DNA of 64,000 bases from Thermococcus radiotolerans. GTDB lineage: Archaea; Methanobacteriota_B; Thermococci; Thermococcales; Thermococcaceae. The stretch spans positions 1,364,001 through 1,428,000 of the forward strand of contig NZ_CP015106.1 in NCBI RefSeq assembly GCF_002214565.1, in the 5' to 3' direction. The position numbers and the translations under genes are program-made. This document shows positions 4,174-56,779 of this stretch, in pieces. Below the pieces are notes generated by a model. The model saw only the letters and a program-made list of their open reading frames with translations. It was not told where the DNA came from and did not search any database. The number at the start of each line of letters is the position of its first letter. Position 1 is the first letter of the stretch.

Positions 4174-4635
4174 TCAGTCCACGGCATCCTTGAAGGCCAG
4201 CGCGAGGGCTCTAACGCAGTTTTTAATTTCCTCGCTCACCCCCATCCAGTCCCCGGGCTGACAGCCGAGGAGCAGGAACCGGGTCTCCGGGAGCAACTCG
4301 GCCAGGTGGTCAAGCGTCACCCTGAGCTGGAAGCGGAACTCCTCGGGAACGTCCCCCATGGCCTCCCAGGGGTCGGCAACGACCACTTTGCCGGGCTCGC
4401 CCCCGAATTCAAGGGGGACCGCAACTATCACAAGCTCCGGACGGAAGCGTATTATAGCCCCCGCCTGGCTCTCGGGAACGTCGTGGCAGTTGATTGGGAG
4501 GAAGTTCGGGTTTTCCACCGCCACGGAGAGGGCCTCTGCCAAATAGGCCCCGAATCCATAATCACCGCGTTTCTCGTTGCCCACGCCGCAGAGAACTATC
4601 CTGCGTGCATCCCCGATTATCTCATCAACCTGCAC
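4174..4635 (-). CDS. HycI/HybD-like hydrogenase maturation protease homologue, nickel ligands apparently lost
   Basis: The protein has 153 residues and the fold signature of [NiFe]-hydrogenase maturation proteases: an N-terminal strand leading into GVGNEKRGDYGFG, then EFGGEPGKV, then LLLGCQPGDW. In active family members three residues, an Asp (or Glu), an Asp and a His, read the nickel of the immature large subunit. Aligned by eye with archaeal HycI, the corresponding positions here are Tyr26 (in GDYG), Val73 and Leu104. The protein therefore looks unable to bind nickel in the usual way. It is the last gene of the CODH operon, 21 bases after a ferredoxin gene, with no hydrogenase nearby. It may be a repurposed scaffold or chaperone; family membership is surer than function. 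Confidence 0.75.
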   Translation of the reverse strand: MQVDEIIGDARRIVLCGVGNEKRGDYGFGAYLAEALSVAVENPNFLPINCHDVPESQAGAIIRFRPELVIVAVPLEFGGEPGKVVVADPWEAMGDVPEEFRFQLRVTLDHLAELLPETRFLLLGCQPGDWMGVSEEIKNCVRALALAFKDAVD

Positions 4636-4656
4636 GGTGGAACCTCCAAAAAGGTA

Positions 4657-5181
4657 TCAGAGGAGAACGTAGCCGGAACTCACGCTCTCCCTGAGCTCCT
4701 CATCGCTGAGCTCCCTCTGGTGTTCGGGGATGTTCTTGGCGCGCCTCTCGTTGACGAGTTCAAGAACCATCTCCAACGGGCCGTACTGGATGGCCTCCGC
4801 CGGGCACATGAGGGCGCAGGCCGGCTCGAGACCCTCCTCGCGTCTGTCGGCACACATGTCGCACTTGGTTATCGCCCTGACCTTGAGGCTGTAGAAGGGA
4901 ACGCCGTAGGGACACACCTGGAGGCAGGCGAGACAGCCGATGCACCTGTTCTCGGCTATCCTCACCGCTCCATCCTCATCACGGTAAATGGCGTTGGTCG
5001 GGCAGACCCTCACGCAGGGCGCGTCGTCGCAGTGCTTGCAGTTTATCGGGAGGTACTGCTTGTTCTCCGTTACGTAAATCCTGATGTGTGGGCTCCCATC
5101 GTGGATGAAGTCGCAGACGGTTTCACAGGTCTCGCAGCCGATGCACGTGAGGTAATCGAGGTAGAGGTATTTCCTCTCCAT
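4657..5181 (-). CDS. HycB/CooF-like ferredoxin with four [4Fe-4S] motifs
   Basis: This 174-residue iron-sulfur protein carries four cysteine groups: CIGCETCETVC, CKHCDDAPCVRVCP, CIGCLACLQVCP and a C-terminal CDMC...CALMCP pair. This is the layout of the CooF/HycB/DmsB electron-transfer subunits. It is a paralogue of the cooF gene at 8713-9318 in the same operon. Its start codon overlaps the stop codon of the FNOR gene, so the two are translationally coupled. It probably links FNOR or CODH to another redox partner. No signal peptide is seen, so it should be cytoplasmic. Confidence 0.85.
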   Translation of the reverse strand: MERKYLYLDYLTCIGCETCETVCDFIHDGSPHIRIYVTENKQYLPINCKHCDDAPCVRVCPTNAIYRDEDGAVRIAENRCIGCLACLQVCPYGVPFYSLKVRAITKCDMCADRREEGLEPACALMCPAEAIQYGPLEMVLELVNERRAKNIPEHQRELSDEELRESVSSGYVLL

Positions 5182-6233
5182 CAGGATTCACCCCTGAGCC
5201 ACCTGTCGATTGAGACTGCCGCATAGAGGCCGTCCTTTATCGCCCTGCCGACCTTCGTCGGGCCGTTGACCACATCCCCGGCGGCAAAGATTCCCTCAAC
5301 GCTCGTCATGTGCCTGGAATCAACGACGATTCTGCCCCTCTTGTCCGTCGCGATGTAGGAGCCGTTAACCGGCGGGGTGGAGACCATGCCTATGGCAAAG
5401 ACCAAGTAGTCCAGCTCAACCTGGAACTCCGAGCCCTCTATGGGTATCGGCCTCCTCCTTCCGGTCTCGTCGGGCTCACCGAGGCGAGTTCTGAGGAGTT
5501 CAATCGCCTTAACGCGGCCGTTCTCACCTATCACGCGCTTTGGAGTCACGAGCTCGAACCATTTGACTCCTCTGTTCCGGAGGATGTTTATCTCGTAGGC
5601 TCCGGCGGGGGCTTCCCTTATCGTCCTGCGGTAGAATATCTCAACCTCCGCACCGAGGCGGTTGCACTCGAAGGCGGCATCAACAGCCGTCAATCCCGCG
5701 CCGATTATACCGACCCTCTTGCCTTTCAAATCGGGAACCTTCTCCTTTGGAACGTAGCCGAGTTCGGCTCCTTTTATCCAGAAGAGGAGCTCCAGCGGTG
5801 AGAGTATGCCCTCCAGGTCGTCCCCGGGGATTCCAATCCTCCTGACGTTCCAGATTCCGGTGGCTATCAGAACCGCGTCGTAGTTCTCCCTGAGTTCACT
5901 GAGTCTAACAGCTCTCTCGTAGAACTCGTCGCCCTCGTCCTCCCTCTCACCCTCCATGACCTTCGTCTTCGGGTAATAGGTTACCTCGAACTCCTCCTCA
6001 AGCTCCTTCGCACCGAGACGAACCCTCTCGACGGGAATCCTGAACTCTGGAATGACGAAGAGCATCAACCCACCGGGCTCGGGCATTTTGTCGTAGATGT
6101 CAACGTCGTGTCCCTTGCAGACGAGGTAGCCGGCCGCCGTAAGTCCCGCCGGTCCAGCGCCGACTATGGCCACCCTCTTTCCAGTCTGCGGGGGCTTCTC
6201 TTTGCAGAGAAAGGAGAACTTGATACCCCTCAT
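5181..6233 (-). CDS. FAD/NAD(P)H oxidoreductase of the GltD type (FNOR) in a CODH operon
   Basis: The 350-residue flavoprotein has two Rossmann motifs, GAGPAGLTAAGYL near residue 25 and GAGLTAVDAAFECN near residue 175. The C-terminal segment TSVEGIFAAGDVVNGP is typical of the glutamate synthase small subunit/NfnB group. The usual N-terminal iron-sulfur domain of GltD is missing; that role may fall to the adjacent ferredoxins. The ATG at 6233 overlaps the stop of the upstream gene as ATGA; the frame is open further upstream but there it overlaps that gene. CODH operons with an FNOR are known in other anaerobes, where CO oxidation is thought to reduce NAD(P)+; that role here is inferred. Confidence 0.87.
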   Translation of the reverse strand: MRGIKFSFLCKEKPPQTGKRVAIVGAGPAGLTAAGYLVCKGHDVDIYDKMPEPGGLMLFVIPEFRIPVERVRLGAKELEEEFEVTYYPKTKVMEGEREDEGDEFYERAVRLSELRENYDAVLIATGIWNVRRIGIPGDDLEGILSPLELLFWIKGAELGYVPKEKVPDLKGKRVGIIGAGLTAVDAAFECNRLGAEVEIFYRRTIREAPAGAYEINILRNRGVKWFELVTPKRVIGENGRVKAIELLRTRLGEPDETGRRRPIPIEGSEFQVELDYLVFAIGMVSTPPVNGSYIATDKRGRIVVDSRHMTSVEGIFAAGDVVNGPTKVGRAIKDGLYAAVSIDRWLRGES

Positions 6234-6745: not shown

Positions 6746-8716
6746 TCAGATACCGAGCTCCTTCCTCTTCTTCATGATGTGGTCGTACATCAGCTTCGCT
6801 GCCTTGTACGGGTCGGGCTCCACTATGAAGGCCGCTCCAACGATGTCGTAGAGGTCCTGCGTGAGAATCTTTACCACCTTCGGACCGCCGAGAACCGGCG
6901 GGACTATGCCAAGGTGCGTGGTGATTCCGCTGGCCACGAAGTAGGTTCCTATCGAGACGGCCTTCTCGGTCATGGCCTCGGGGGCAGAGCCCACCACAGG
7001 CAATGCCGAAATAGGAACGTTCAGGTCCCTAGCCACCAGGTCGGCCAGGACGAGTATTCTCGTACAGTCAACGCACGAGCCCATGTTAAGAGCAGGAGGA
7101 ATGCCCCACTCCTTGACGAACTCCCTCAGACCGGGCCCAACGTTCTCGGTGTCCGCGTACTCGGGCAGGAAGATGCCATACTTCATCGCCGCGGTCGCCC
7201 AGCAGCCGGTTCCCACGAGGAGGACGTCCCTCTTCATCAGCTCGTTGGCTATCTTGATGTGGTTGTGATCCTGCTTTATCTTCGGGTTGTTGCAGCCGAC
7301 TAAGCCCGCTACGCCCTTTATCTTGCCCTCGACGATGGCCTCTTCAATGGGCTTGAGGGAGCCTCCGAAGTGCTTGAGTATCGCCTCGACGCTGAAGCCG
7401 ACGTATCCTGCCATCTTCTCCTTCGGTATCTCAACCCTCACCTTCGACCTGTTCGGGAAGTTCTCAACTGCAGTCTTGACTATCTCCTTGGCTATCTCAT
7501 CCGCCCTTCTCTCGTCGAACTTGATGTGTATGGCTCCCGGGAACGTTGCCAGCGGGCTGGTGTCTATTATCTTGGTGTGGAAGCACCTGGCCACGTCAAC
7601 CGTTGCGGGCATTATACACTGCACGTCAACTACCATGGCCTCGACGGCGCCGGTAACTATGGCCATCTCCTGCTGGAGGAAGTTGCCGGCTATGGGTATG
7701 CCGTGCCTCATGAGAACCTCTAAACCTGTACAGCACATTCCGACGACGTTTATGCCCTTGGCACCGAGTTTCTCGGCGAGCTCGAGCAGCTCGGGATCCT
7801 GAGCCGCCTCAACGATTTTCTCCGAGAGAACGGGCTCGTGGCCGTGGACGACTATGTTGACGTAGTCCTCCTTGAGGACTCCGAGGTTGGCCTCGGCCTT
7901 TATGACCTGCGGCGTGCCGAAGAGCACGTCCTGAAGTTCGGTCGCTATGAGCGAACCTCCCCATGCATCGCCGAGGGACGTCTTCAGACCGTGGAGGAGT
8001 ATACTCACCGGGTCGTGGTCGGTTCCTATGTGAGTCCTGTGGAGGCTCTCCACTATCTCTCTGTCTATGCTCCTCGGGAGAATACCGTTCTCGAACCAAG
8101 GCATGCCGGCCTTCTCGGCGGCCTTCTCGAACATCTCGTAGGTCTTGGGGTTGAGGTAGGCCTTGAGGAAGGCCAGAGCCTCCTCATCCTGCTTTCCAAA
8201 GTCATTGAGCGCCACTTCGGCAACTTCCTTGGCGAGCTCCCTGACGGTCTTGCCCTCCGTCTCGATTCCGAGCCTCTCGGCGATGGCCTTGAGCTTCTCG
8301 ACATCCCTCACCTGATACGGCAGGGTGCTCGACGCCATGTTGTCGAGTTCAAGGACGGGCTTTCCTTCCTTCTTGAACTTCTCGGCCATTTCGGCCGCTA
8401 TGAGAAGGGTCAGAGCCACGTGGCGCCCGTGGTCACTGTGAGCGGCAGCACCGGCCGCTATCATCCTGAGAAGGTTCCTGGCGACTATGGTGTCAGCATC
8501 GGCACCGCAGACGCCCCTTCTCGGCTCGCCCCCGAAGGGGTTGATCCTGCACGGTCCCATCATACAGTTCCTGCAGCAGACTCCAAGGAGGCCGTAACCG
8601 CACTGCGGCTGCTGCTTCTCGAGCCTCTCCCAAACGGTCTCAATTCCCATCTCCTGGGCTCTTTCGTACATCTTTTGGGTGGTCGGGTCGATAGAAACTT
8701 CCTTATACTTCTTCAT
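6746..8716 (-). CDS. cooS: Ni-containing carbon monoxide dehydrogenase catalytic subunit
   Basis: The 656-residue protein is an anaerobic CODH that interconverts CO and CO2. All expected metal ligands can be recognised. The N-terminal CGYGLLGVCCRNCMMGPC plus GVCG covers the D- and B-cluster cysteines. For the C-cluster there are His in VHGHEP, and Cys in GMCCTG, VQCIMP, GCNNPK, GTGCWA and MGSCVD. The start overlaps the cooF stop as ATGA, and the length is ordinary for the family. No acetyl-CoA synthase gene and no hydrogenase lies in the window, so this appears to be a stand-alone CODH working with CooF and FNOR. Nickel insertion is presumably helped by the divergent cooC. Confidence 0.96.
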   Translation of the reverse strand: MKKYKEVSIDPTTQKMYERAQEMGIETVWERLEKQQPQCGYGLLGVCCRNCMMGPCRINPFGGEPRRGVCGADADTIVARNLLRMIAAGAAAHSDHGRHVALTLLIAAEMAEKFKKEGKPVLELDNMASSTLPYQVRDVEKLKAIAERLGIETEGKTVRELAKEVAEVALNDFGKQDEEALAFLKAYLNPKTYEMFEKAAEKAGMPWFENGILPRSIDREIVESLHRTHIGTDHDPVSILLHGLKTSLGDAWGGSLIATELQDVLFGTPQVIKAEANLGVLKEDYVNIVVHGHEPVLSEKIVEAAQDPELLELAEKLGAKGINVVGMCCTGLEVLMRHGIPIAGNFLQQEMAIVTGAVEAMVVDVQCIMPATVDVARCFHTKIIDTSPLATFPGAIHIKFDERRADEIAKEIVKTAVENFPNRSKVRVEIPKEKMAGYVGFSVEAILKHFGGSLKPIEEAIVEGKIKGVAGLVGCNNPKIKQDHNHIKIANELMKRDVLLVGTGCWATAAMKYGIFLPEYADTENVGPGLREFVKEWGIPPALNMGSCVDCTRILVLADLVARDLNVPISALPVVGSAPEAMTEKAVSIGTYFVASGITTHLGIVPPVLGGPKVVKILTQDLYDIVGAAFIVEPDPYKAAKLMYDHIMKKRKELGI

Positions 8717-9318
8717 TTCGACTCCCCCTCATTAATACGAATAATTTCGGCGTACATGGACCTGAAAAGGTCCCAACCGTTGTATTCCTCTTCATACGTC
8801 CCTTCTTTCAGCTTGATTATCTTCTCGGCCGTTTCCTTCCTGACGCTGGAGACTATCTCGTCTATGGTGCCGAACTGAAGCGCCCCGGTCTTGCACGCCT
8901 CAACGCACGCGGGAGGCCGGCCCTCGGCTCTCCTGTCGGGACACATATCGCACTTGAACATCACACCGTTGAGGGCTTCGAACTCGGGGATACCGAAGGG
9001 ACAGACGATGGCACACATCTTGCAGCCGATGCACTTCTCGGGGGTTATCATGACCGCGCCGTCTTCGTCGTGATAGAGCGCGCCGGTGGGACATACCTCG
9101 ACACACGGTGCGCCATCGCAGTGCCTGCAGTTCATGGGTACGTTGTAGGCCCCCATGGGGAGAATGTGTATCCTCGGCAGGGGCAGCGGGTCCTCAAAGA
9201 TCGCTGAGAAGAGGTCCTTGCTCTGAGAGTGTTCCACTGCACACGCTATCTCACACTGCCGACAGCCAATGCACTTCGCTGGGTTTATGAAGATAGTAGG
9301 CTTTGAATCGGTGGGCAT
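8713..9318 (-). CDS. cooF: CODH electron-transfer ferredoxin CooF
   Basis: This 201-residue polyferredoxin has four cysteine clusters: CIGCRQCEIAC near residue 17, CRHCDGAPCVEVCP, CIGCKMCAIVCP, and CDMC with CVEACK. It is the first gene of the leftward CODH operon and overlaps cooS by four bases, the usual CooF-CooS arrangement. CooF takes electrons from the B/D clusters of CooS and passes them to a partner complex. It resembles the second ferredoxin at 4657-5181. The ATG at 9318 follows GGTGATTT, and a TATA element lies at 9351-9358. Confidence 0.92.
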   Translation of the reverse strand: MPTDSKPTIFINPAKCIGCRQCEIACAVEHSQSKDLFSAIFEDPLPLPRIHILPMGAYNVPMNCRHCDGAPCVEVCPTGALYHDEDGAVMITPEKCIGCKMCAIVCPFGIPEFEALNGVMFKCDMCPDRRAEGRPPACVEACKTGALQFGTIDEIVSSVRKETAEKIIKLKEGTYEEEYNGWDLFRSMYAEIIRINEGESK

Positions 9319-9652: not shown

Positions 9653-10558
9653 ATGACAAAACCCCCGAATCCCGCGGATGAGGAGAGGAGAAAAAAACTG
9701 TTTGAAATCGCCGATGAACTCAGGGAGCGGACGAAAAAGCAGACCCCCGAGGAAGGTTTTAGGGTCGTGATAACGGGCAAGGGTGGAGTCGGAAAAACCA
9801 CGATGACGGCTATCCTCGCAAGGCTCCTGGCCAGGGACGGCTACCGCGTTCTGGCCGTTGATGAGGACCCCCAGATGAACCTCGCACACGCCCTCGGCGT
9901 TCCAAAGGAAGTGCGCGATAAGATAGTTCCCCTGAACAGAAACCTAGATTACATAGAGGAAAAAACGGGAGCGAGGCCGGGCACCAACTGGGGTCTGTAC
10001 TTCTCACTCACCCCCGACGTCAGGGACGTCGTTGACCGCTTCGGTGTCGTCGGACCGGATGGCGTCATGCTCCTCGTCATGGGGAGCGTGGTTCAGGCCG
10101 CGGCCGGCTGTCTCTGCCCCGAAAATGCTCTCCTCGATGCCGTCATCAAGTACATCAACCTCAGGAAGGGCGAGATAATTCTGATGGACACGCAGGCCGG
10201 GCTGGAGCACTTTGGAAGGGCCCTCGCCAGGGGCTTCAAGCAGGCGGTTATACTCACGGAGCCAACCTACAACTCCGTTCAGGTGGCGGTTGATGCAGCG
10301 AAACTGGCGAGGCAGCTGGGCATAGAACATGTCCACCTGGTAATCAACAAAGTGAAGAAGGAAGGCCACGTGGAAAAGGTCGAGAGAATCCTGAACGAGC
10401 TCGGCTTCAACGACTTCACGACGAAGACGGTAATCCCCTACGACGAGATGGTCGAGGAGTACGACCCGGAGATAGAGGCAATACTAGCCAATCCCGAGTC
10501 GCCAACCTATATAAAAGCCCTAGAGCTGAAGAATATCCTCCTGAAGTACGCGGAGTAG
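9653..10558 (+). CDS. cooC: CODH nickel-insertion accessory ATPase CooC
   Basis: This 301-residue MinD/ParA-superfamily ATPase has the deviant Walker A motif GKGGVGKTT near residue 41. The switch segment is AVDEDPQMNLAHALG, and a GCLCPE motif near residue 160 supplies the CXC cysteines that bind metal at the dimer interface in CooC. The protein helps nickel enter the C-cluster of CooS at the expense of ATP. About 35 charged residues precede the ATPase domain, longer than in many CooC proteins; the ATG at 9653 has a good GAGGTG site, so the extension is probably real. It is divergent from cooF and monocistronic. Confidence 0.92.
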   Translation: MTKPPNPADEERRKKLFEIADELRERTKKQTPEEGFRVVITGKGGVGKTTMTAILARLLARDGYRVLAVDEDPQMNLAHALGVPKEVRDKIVPLNRNLDYIEEKTGARPGTNWGLYFSLTPDVRDVVDRFGVVGPDGVMLLVMGSVVQAAAGCLCPENALLDAVIKYINLRKGEIILMDTQAGLEHFGRALARGFKQAVILTEPTYNSVQVAVDAAKLARQLGIEHVHLVINKVKKEGHVEKVERILNELGFNDFTTKTVIPYDEMVEEYDPEIEAILANPESPTYIKALELKNILLKYAE

Positions 10559-20332: not shown

Positions 20333-20424
20333 GTTTATAAGAGGCTCCAGGAAAGAAAGAAACGGCCGATGATGGCAACAGGGTAGCTACCGAATCTTGA
20401 TGTGGAAGCCGTTCCAGTCTGAGG

Positions 20425-56701: not shown

Positions 56702-56779
56702 GCGGTGGTAGTCTAGCCTGGTCCAGGACACCGGCCTCCCAAGCCGGTAACCCGGGTTCGAATCCCGGCCACCGCACCA
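56702..56779 (+). tRNA. tRNA-Gly (anticodon CCC)
   Basis: The acceptor arm is GCGGTGG (56702-56708) paired with CCACCGC (56769-56775), followed by discriminator A and encoded CCA (56777-56779). The anticodon stem CCGGC/GCCGG closes loop CTCCCAA with anticodon CCC at 56738-56740. The T arm carries GGTTCGAATCC. No intron is present. A TATA-like CTTTTAAAG lies near 56657-56665, within the end of the upstream gene. Confidence 0.96.

Follow-up and report, generated by a model that had tools for sequence, protein, structure and literature searches.

A HycI-fold protein lacking the three nickel ligands closes a CODH-FNOR operon in Thermococcaceae

The closest described relatives of the protein considered here are the hydrogenase maturation proteases of the HycI type, for which two aspartates and one histidine have been proposed as the nickel ligands (PMC12134894). 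The maturation of CODH has received less study than hydrogenase or urease maturation (PMC6006190). The operon of TcCODH-I has its CooC on the opposite strand, and the main text of the paper that treats it names no HycI-like gene (PMC13056359). In the main text of PMC6344411, FNOR is linked with several CODH groups, the maturation protease COG0680 is associated with the hydrogenase-linked F groups, and FNOR of the CODH-FNOR type is stated to have been, as of 2019, without any reported biochemical study. The main text of the T. gammatolerans genome paper records CooC and CooS proteins in cells from rich medium; the one HycI that it names lies near the Mhy1 locus, and a HycI-like gene of the CODH operon is absent from that text. 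A description of the protein presented below is likewise absent from the main texts of PMC13056359, PMC6344411, PMC2718504 and PMC3407056.

The window, meaning the whole stretch of DNA that was analysed (64,000 nucleotides; G000:C1:1364001-1428000), belongs to a Thermococcaceae genome and carries an operon with the order cooF-cooS-Fd-FNOR-cooF2-HycIv (Table 1; all coordinates are those of the window). HycIv is our label for the protein encoded by the gene that closes it, 21 nt beyond the cooF2 stop; the preliminary description had made this gene the last of a cooF-cooS-ferredoxin-FNOR-ferredoxin operon, and the gene order bears that out. The NCBIfam name of the FNOR is putative glutamate synthase beta subunit. 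A chance or mis-called reading frame is ruled out by the ribosome-binding site, by presence in 17 genomes and by the dN/dS ratios given below. The earlier statement that no hydrogenase gene is nearby also stands: the window contains no [NiFe]-hydrogenase large-subunit gene, and the closest one in a genome-wide search lies ~105 kb away. The same genome has a separate canonical HycI copy elsewhere, which, with the lack of a large subunit in the window, rules out that HycIv is the canonical HycI of an adjacent hydrogenase. Farther along the window are a C/D-box guide RNA, sR22 (20365-20424; RF01275, 73 bits), and a single tRNA gene (56702-56776; RF00005).

Table 1. The operon closed by HycIv, with its divergent neighbour, in window coordinates
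Feature	Description	Position	Strand	Basis
HycIv	153 aa from a GTG start; HycI-like, with Tyr26, Val73 and Phe100 in place of the three nickel ligands	4174..4635	-	sequence, fold, alignment
Shine-Dalgarno-like motif	GGAGGTT, 5 nt upstream of the HycIv GTG	4641..4647	-	direct sequence reading
CooF2	second CooF-like protein, ferredoxin-like 4Fe-4S (Fer4_11), 174 aa	4657..5181	-	family scan
FNOR	NAD(P)/FAD oxidoreductase, glutamate-synthase-beta-like (NF009409, 505 bits, cut-off 343)	5181..6233	-	family scan
Fd	4Fe-4S ferredoxin-like protein, 160 aa	6230..6712	-	family scan
CooS	Ni-CODH catalytic subunit (TIGR01702, 693 bits, cut-off 478)	6746..8716	-	family scan
CooF	ferredoxin-like subunit, opens the operon	8713..9318	-	family scan
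CooC-like	MinD-type ATPase transcribed away from the operon; by homology, an ATPase for nickel insertion	9653..10558	+	family scan, gene order

HycIv is a HycI-fold protein, a relative of a known family. A phmmer search of the PDB with HycIv matched HycI of T. kodakarensis (5zby) at 2.4e-28 and E. coli HycI at 3.3e-8; a profile built from 15 relatives matched 5zby at 1.3e-31, and comparison of a HycIv profile with a profile of nine canonical HycI gave a probability of 100% (E=4e-43). An AlphaFold2 model made from six sequences is of modest confidence (mean pLDDT 63.7, pTM 0.62). With this model as the query, a fold search put 5zby at the top (E=3.4e-8, TM 0.67) as the sole PDB match below 0.001; second came HybD (1cfz), at probability 0.92 and TM 0.44 for a query that is a low-confidence model. 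Taken together, the model, modest as its confidence is, and the profile comparison place HycIv in the HycI/HybD fold. Identity to Thermococcaceae HycI is about 33-46%, and HycIv falls below the curated cut-offs of TIGR00142 (47.7 vs 119.1) and TIGR00072 (43.2 vs 47.45), the latter being matched at 107.6 by the canonical HycI of the same genome. A Pfam scan of HycIv gave no match; PF01750 is absent in the three HycIv proteins tested, and the canonical HycI copies tested match it at 54-67 bits. The scaffold itself is kept, as the preliminary description had it, with GVGNEKRG, EFGGEPG and LLLGCQP all present, and 30 scaffold positions are common to HycIv and canonical HycI.

The ligand positions were compared in an alignment of 15 intact HycIv with 22 canonical Thermococcus HycI (37 proteins). 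Site 1, which is Asp in all 22 canonical proteins, is Tyr in 13 HycIv (Tyr26 in the window), Leu in one and Glu in one; site 2, again Asp in all 22, is Val in 12 (Val73 in the window) and Ile, Thr and Ser in one each; site 3, His in all 22, is Phe in 13 (Phe100 in the window) and Leu in two. Not one of the 15 keeps the ligand of site 2 or of site 3, and the single Glu at site 1 is the only acid at any of the three. The lost ligands had been given earlier as Tyr26, Val73 and Leu104: the first two stand, and the third does not, Leu104 being ruled out as a ligand column because it is Leu in all 37 aligned proteins and the His column falls on Phe100 in three alignments. Moving the third ligand to Phe100 leaves the claim that the His is missing unchanged, and the profile alignment finds no intact set of Asp/Glu, Asp and His at the nickel site of HycIv. 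Eighteen positions are fixed differently in HycIv and in canonical HycI, ligand sites 1 and 3 and their neighbours among them (26, 27, 98, 100, 103), and many of the newly conserved positions fall in a block around the former His site, residues 90-119 (W90, E91, D95, P97, R101, Q103, L104, V106-T107-L108, H110, E113, L115-P116, T118-R119).

HycIv is present in 17 of 94 Thermococcaceae genomes. The same 17 have a CooS at least 94% identical to that of the window, and a complete CooF2 at 87% identity or more occurs, among the 94 genomes examined, only in them; CooS with CooF, FNOR and an opposite-strand CooC, the TcCODH-I type of arrangement, was found in 17 genomes. HycIv is the last gene of the operon at every one of the 17 loci (G054 has its operon on separate contigs), so that it travels with all 17 operons of this type; its loci are CODH operons, not the neighbourhoods of hydrogenases. 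The operons lie in at least three chromosomal neighbourhoods: beside VOR/POR genes; with NikR, HypA, a HypB-like gene and canonical HycI; and, in a third group, elsewhere. Because the 17 genomes are related, the linkage is partly the inheritance of one block, and not 17 independent events.

The distribution of absences is informative as well. Among 32 CooS-bearing genomes, 15 are without HycIv. It is absent where a CooS of ~60% identity adjoins hydrogenase subunit genes, and absent also from other clusters that carry FNOR-CooF2 pairs at 57-65% identity (G043, G012). As it is missing both beside other CooS types and beside other FNOR-CooF2 pairs, HycIv tracks the full combination rather than CooS or the pair alone; the pair has the look of an electron-transfer module that can be used in more than one setting. 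Across 115 genomes of the phylum, the matches outside Thermococcaceae were only weak ones (about 1e-11 to 1e-12), judged by score alone; a single-protein query of a wide genome collection, of a kind that finds close relatives, returned three Thermococcus loci.

Several of the loci deserve description for themselves. At six of them (L036, L039, L041, L042, L049 and L051), hypA, a MinD/ParA-type ATPase gene (HypB-like) and canonical hycI lie 3' of HycIv, with hycI not seen in L036, and in some of the six a NikR gene is on the opposite strand. At the chromosomal position that the window operon occupies, G043 (L085 9135-11619) has a 71%-identical CooS with cooF and a divergent cooC; Fd, FNOR, CooF2 and HycIv are missing from that locus. 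The FNOR-CooF2 pairs at L125 10810-12320 and L126 8694-10264 (57-65%) have, by inspection, formate-dehydrogenase-like and antiporter-like neighbours. In G060 (L120, G060:C77 6787-7541) the C-terminal half of cooC leads straight into the final third of FNOR, which is followed by the beginning of cooF2 at a contig end; cooF, cooS and Fd are missing from this remnant. In G063 (L051, G063:C147) the DNA of cooF-cooS is 90-93% identical to the window clade, and that of cooC, FNOR and cooF2 74-78%; from these identities the operon appears to have recombined internally.

In a midpoint-rooted tree the HycIv proteins form one clade with 100/100 support, apart from the canonical hycI of the same genomes. 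In the deepest branch, G046 and G063, site 1 is still Glu, whereas site 2 is Ser or Ala and site 3 is Leu; this suggests that the nickel ligands were lost stepwise, because the pair keeps an acid at site 1 and neither of the other two ligands. The intact copies are under purifying selection: dN/dS of HycIv in three clades is 0.095, 0.159 and 0.050, against 0.032, 0.020 and 0.029 for CooS in the same clades. No gene of the operon evolves faster than HycIv and Fd. Of the 17 copies two are broken, that of G062 by a TGA in place of a Trp codon and that of G063 by a frameshift; both are draft genomes, and the interruptions may be errors or real losses. The copy in G019 (T. gammatolerans) is intact. 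The picture drawn earlier, of a protease fold that lost its metal-sensing site and stayed in the operon of a nickel enzyme, therefore fits one clade, all 17 operons and selection on the intact copies.

One way to understand these observations is to suppose that HycIv is a pseudoprotease, without proteolytic activity, that serves the assembly or the stability of the CODH-ferredoxin-FNOR complex; this is the reading we favour, although we hold it short of probable. A single duplication of an archaeal hycI would have given rise to HycIv; the first acid would have been lost last, after the second Asp and the His, with Tyr, Val and Phe in their places; and the gene would have become fixed as the last of an operon of CooS (TcCODH-I type), FNOR and CooF2. 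Nickel sensing and the cutting of a C-terminal tail would both be gone. HycIv is predicted not to cut because the residues proposed to read nickel in the substrate are gone and because CooS, which ends where its relatives end, shows in comparison with them no C-terminal tail that could be a substrate. What would remain is a small binding protein, the rebuilt surface by the old cleft (block 90-119) holding a partner of the complex during assembly; alternatively, within the same reading, HycIv may stabilise the finished CODH-ferredoxin-FNOR complex. That it binds such a partner we infer from the rebuilding of the conserved block and from the way it follows the complete operon, and its client is more likely to be the CooS-FNOR-CooF2 complex than CooS by itself. 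The role proposed in the preliminary description, that of a CODH assembly or stability factor or a regulator, is in this sense plausible as a putative one.

A perspective closer to the ancestral role supposes a maturation factor or checkpoint for the nickel site of CooS, which would act with CooC and recognise apo- or Ni-loaded CooS much as HycI does Ni-loaded hydrogenase. The divergent CooC that adjoins the operon is compatible with this, as are the nickel genes (NikR, HypA, HypB-like, canonical HycI) that follow it in six genomes; yet HycIv has lost every nickel ligand, CooS has no tail to be checked, nearly half of the CooS-bearing genomes do without HycIv, and CooC is already present as a gene of its own, and we judge the proposal unlikely. 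The window CooS we infer to be an ortholog of CooS1 of Thermococcus sp. AM4, an enzyme that has reportedly been made active in Desulfovibrio, a bacterium, with CooC as the only maturase; this activity, together with the two interrupted copies, makes it unlikely that HycIv is strictly required for nickel insertion into CooS. Direct nickel insertion is thus a less likely role than helping the complex to assemble or keeping it stable. The stop in one interrupted copy, the frameshift in the other and a dN that is high among the genes of the operon would also suit a relic, or a passenger under weak selection, left from an old hycI duplication and now of no importance. This we hold to be quite unlikely, given that dN/dS is 0.05-0.16 in three clades, that 15 of the 17 copies are intact, that positions are invariant within the lineage, and that the gene stays with its operon at several chromosomal sites.

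The scaffold motifs that HycIv retains (GxGN, PES, GCQP) admit another thought: as a decoy, it might still bind canonical HycI or the large subunits of hydrogenases and so restrain their maturation while the CODH operon is expressed. Canonical HycI does occur in 16 of the 17 HycIv genomes, the exception being a draft that is 81% complete; but HycIv is not linked to hydrogenase genes, and the block 90-119 has been rebuilt rather than kept, so that this stands as improbable. Most improbable of all is a peptidase that stays active with a different metal site, or none, and cuts one of the operon's products. In its favour, HycIv has an invariant Asp25 and an invariant Cys50, and His110 is found in 14 of 15; Asp25 and Cys50, however, are equally invariant in canonical HycI, where they are not among the proposed ligands, and CooS, again, has no extra tail.

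HycIv, then, belongs to a known fold family, lacks the ligands and has a new setting, a CODH-FNOR operon; its function would be that of a partner rather than a protease. HycI (T. kodakarensis 5zby; E. coli 2e85/2i8l; PF01750, TIGR00142, TIGR00072) has the fold in common with HycIv, and the motifs GxGN, GD, NC, PES and GCQP; it differs in possessing the Asp/Asp/His ligands, and HycIv lies in a CODH-FNOR operon, not with hydrogenase genes. E. coli HybD (1cfz), similar in fold, is likewise an active protease with its metal ligands, unlike HycIv. The opposite-strand CooC of the TcCODH-I operon, as the main text of PMC13056359 has it, recurs in the window. A parallel of another kind is offered by the iRhoms, pseudoproteases that retain a protease fold under selection without the active-site residues (PMC6451368), although in fold and biology they are unrelated to HycIv. 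In HycIv a metal-sensing site seems to have been lost in steps while the scaffold stays under selection. It is possible, and we put it forward tentatively, that a hydrogenase-protease fold was recruited in this stepwise manner as a pseudoprotease subunit, or a chaperone of assembly, dedicated to an archaeal CODH-FNOR complex. Its occurrence in every operon of one CODH type, that of the cultured species T. gammatolerans included, makes HycIv a direct target for genetics. Small helper proteins encoded with CooS are described in PMC6006190, namely CooC, CooT and CooJ. HycIv resembles them in this respect, is unrelated to them in sequence in Pfam and NCBIfam scans, and is set apart by its lack of nickel ligands and by the separate CooC that already stands beside its operon; if the proposal is true, it would be a new class of CODH accessory protein beside these three.
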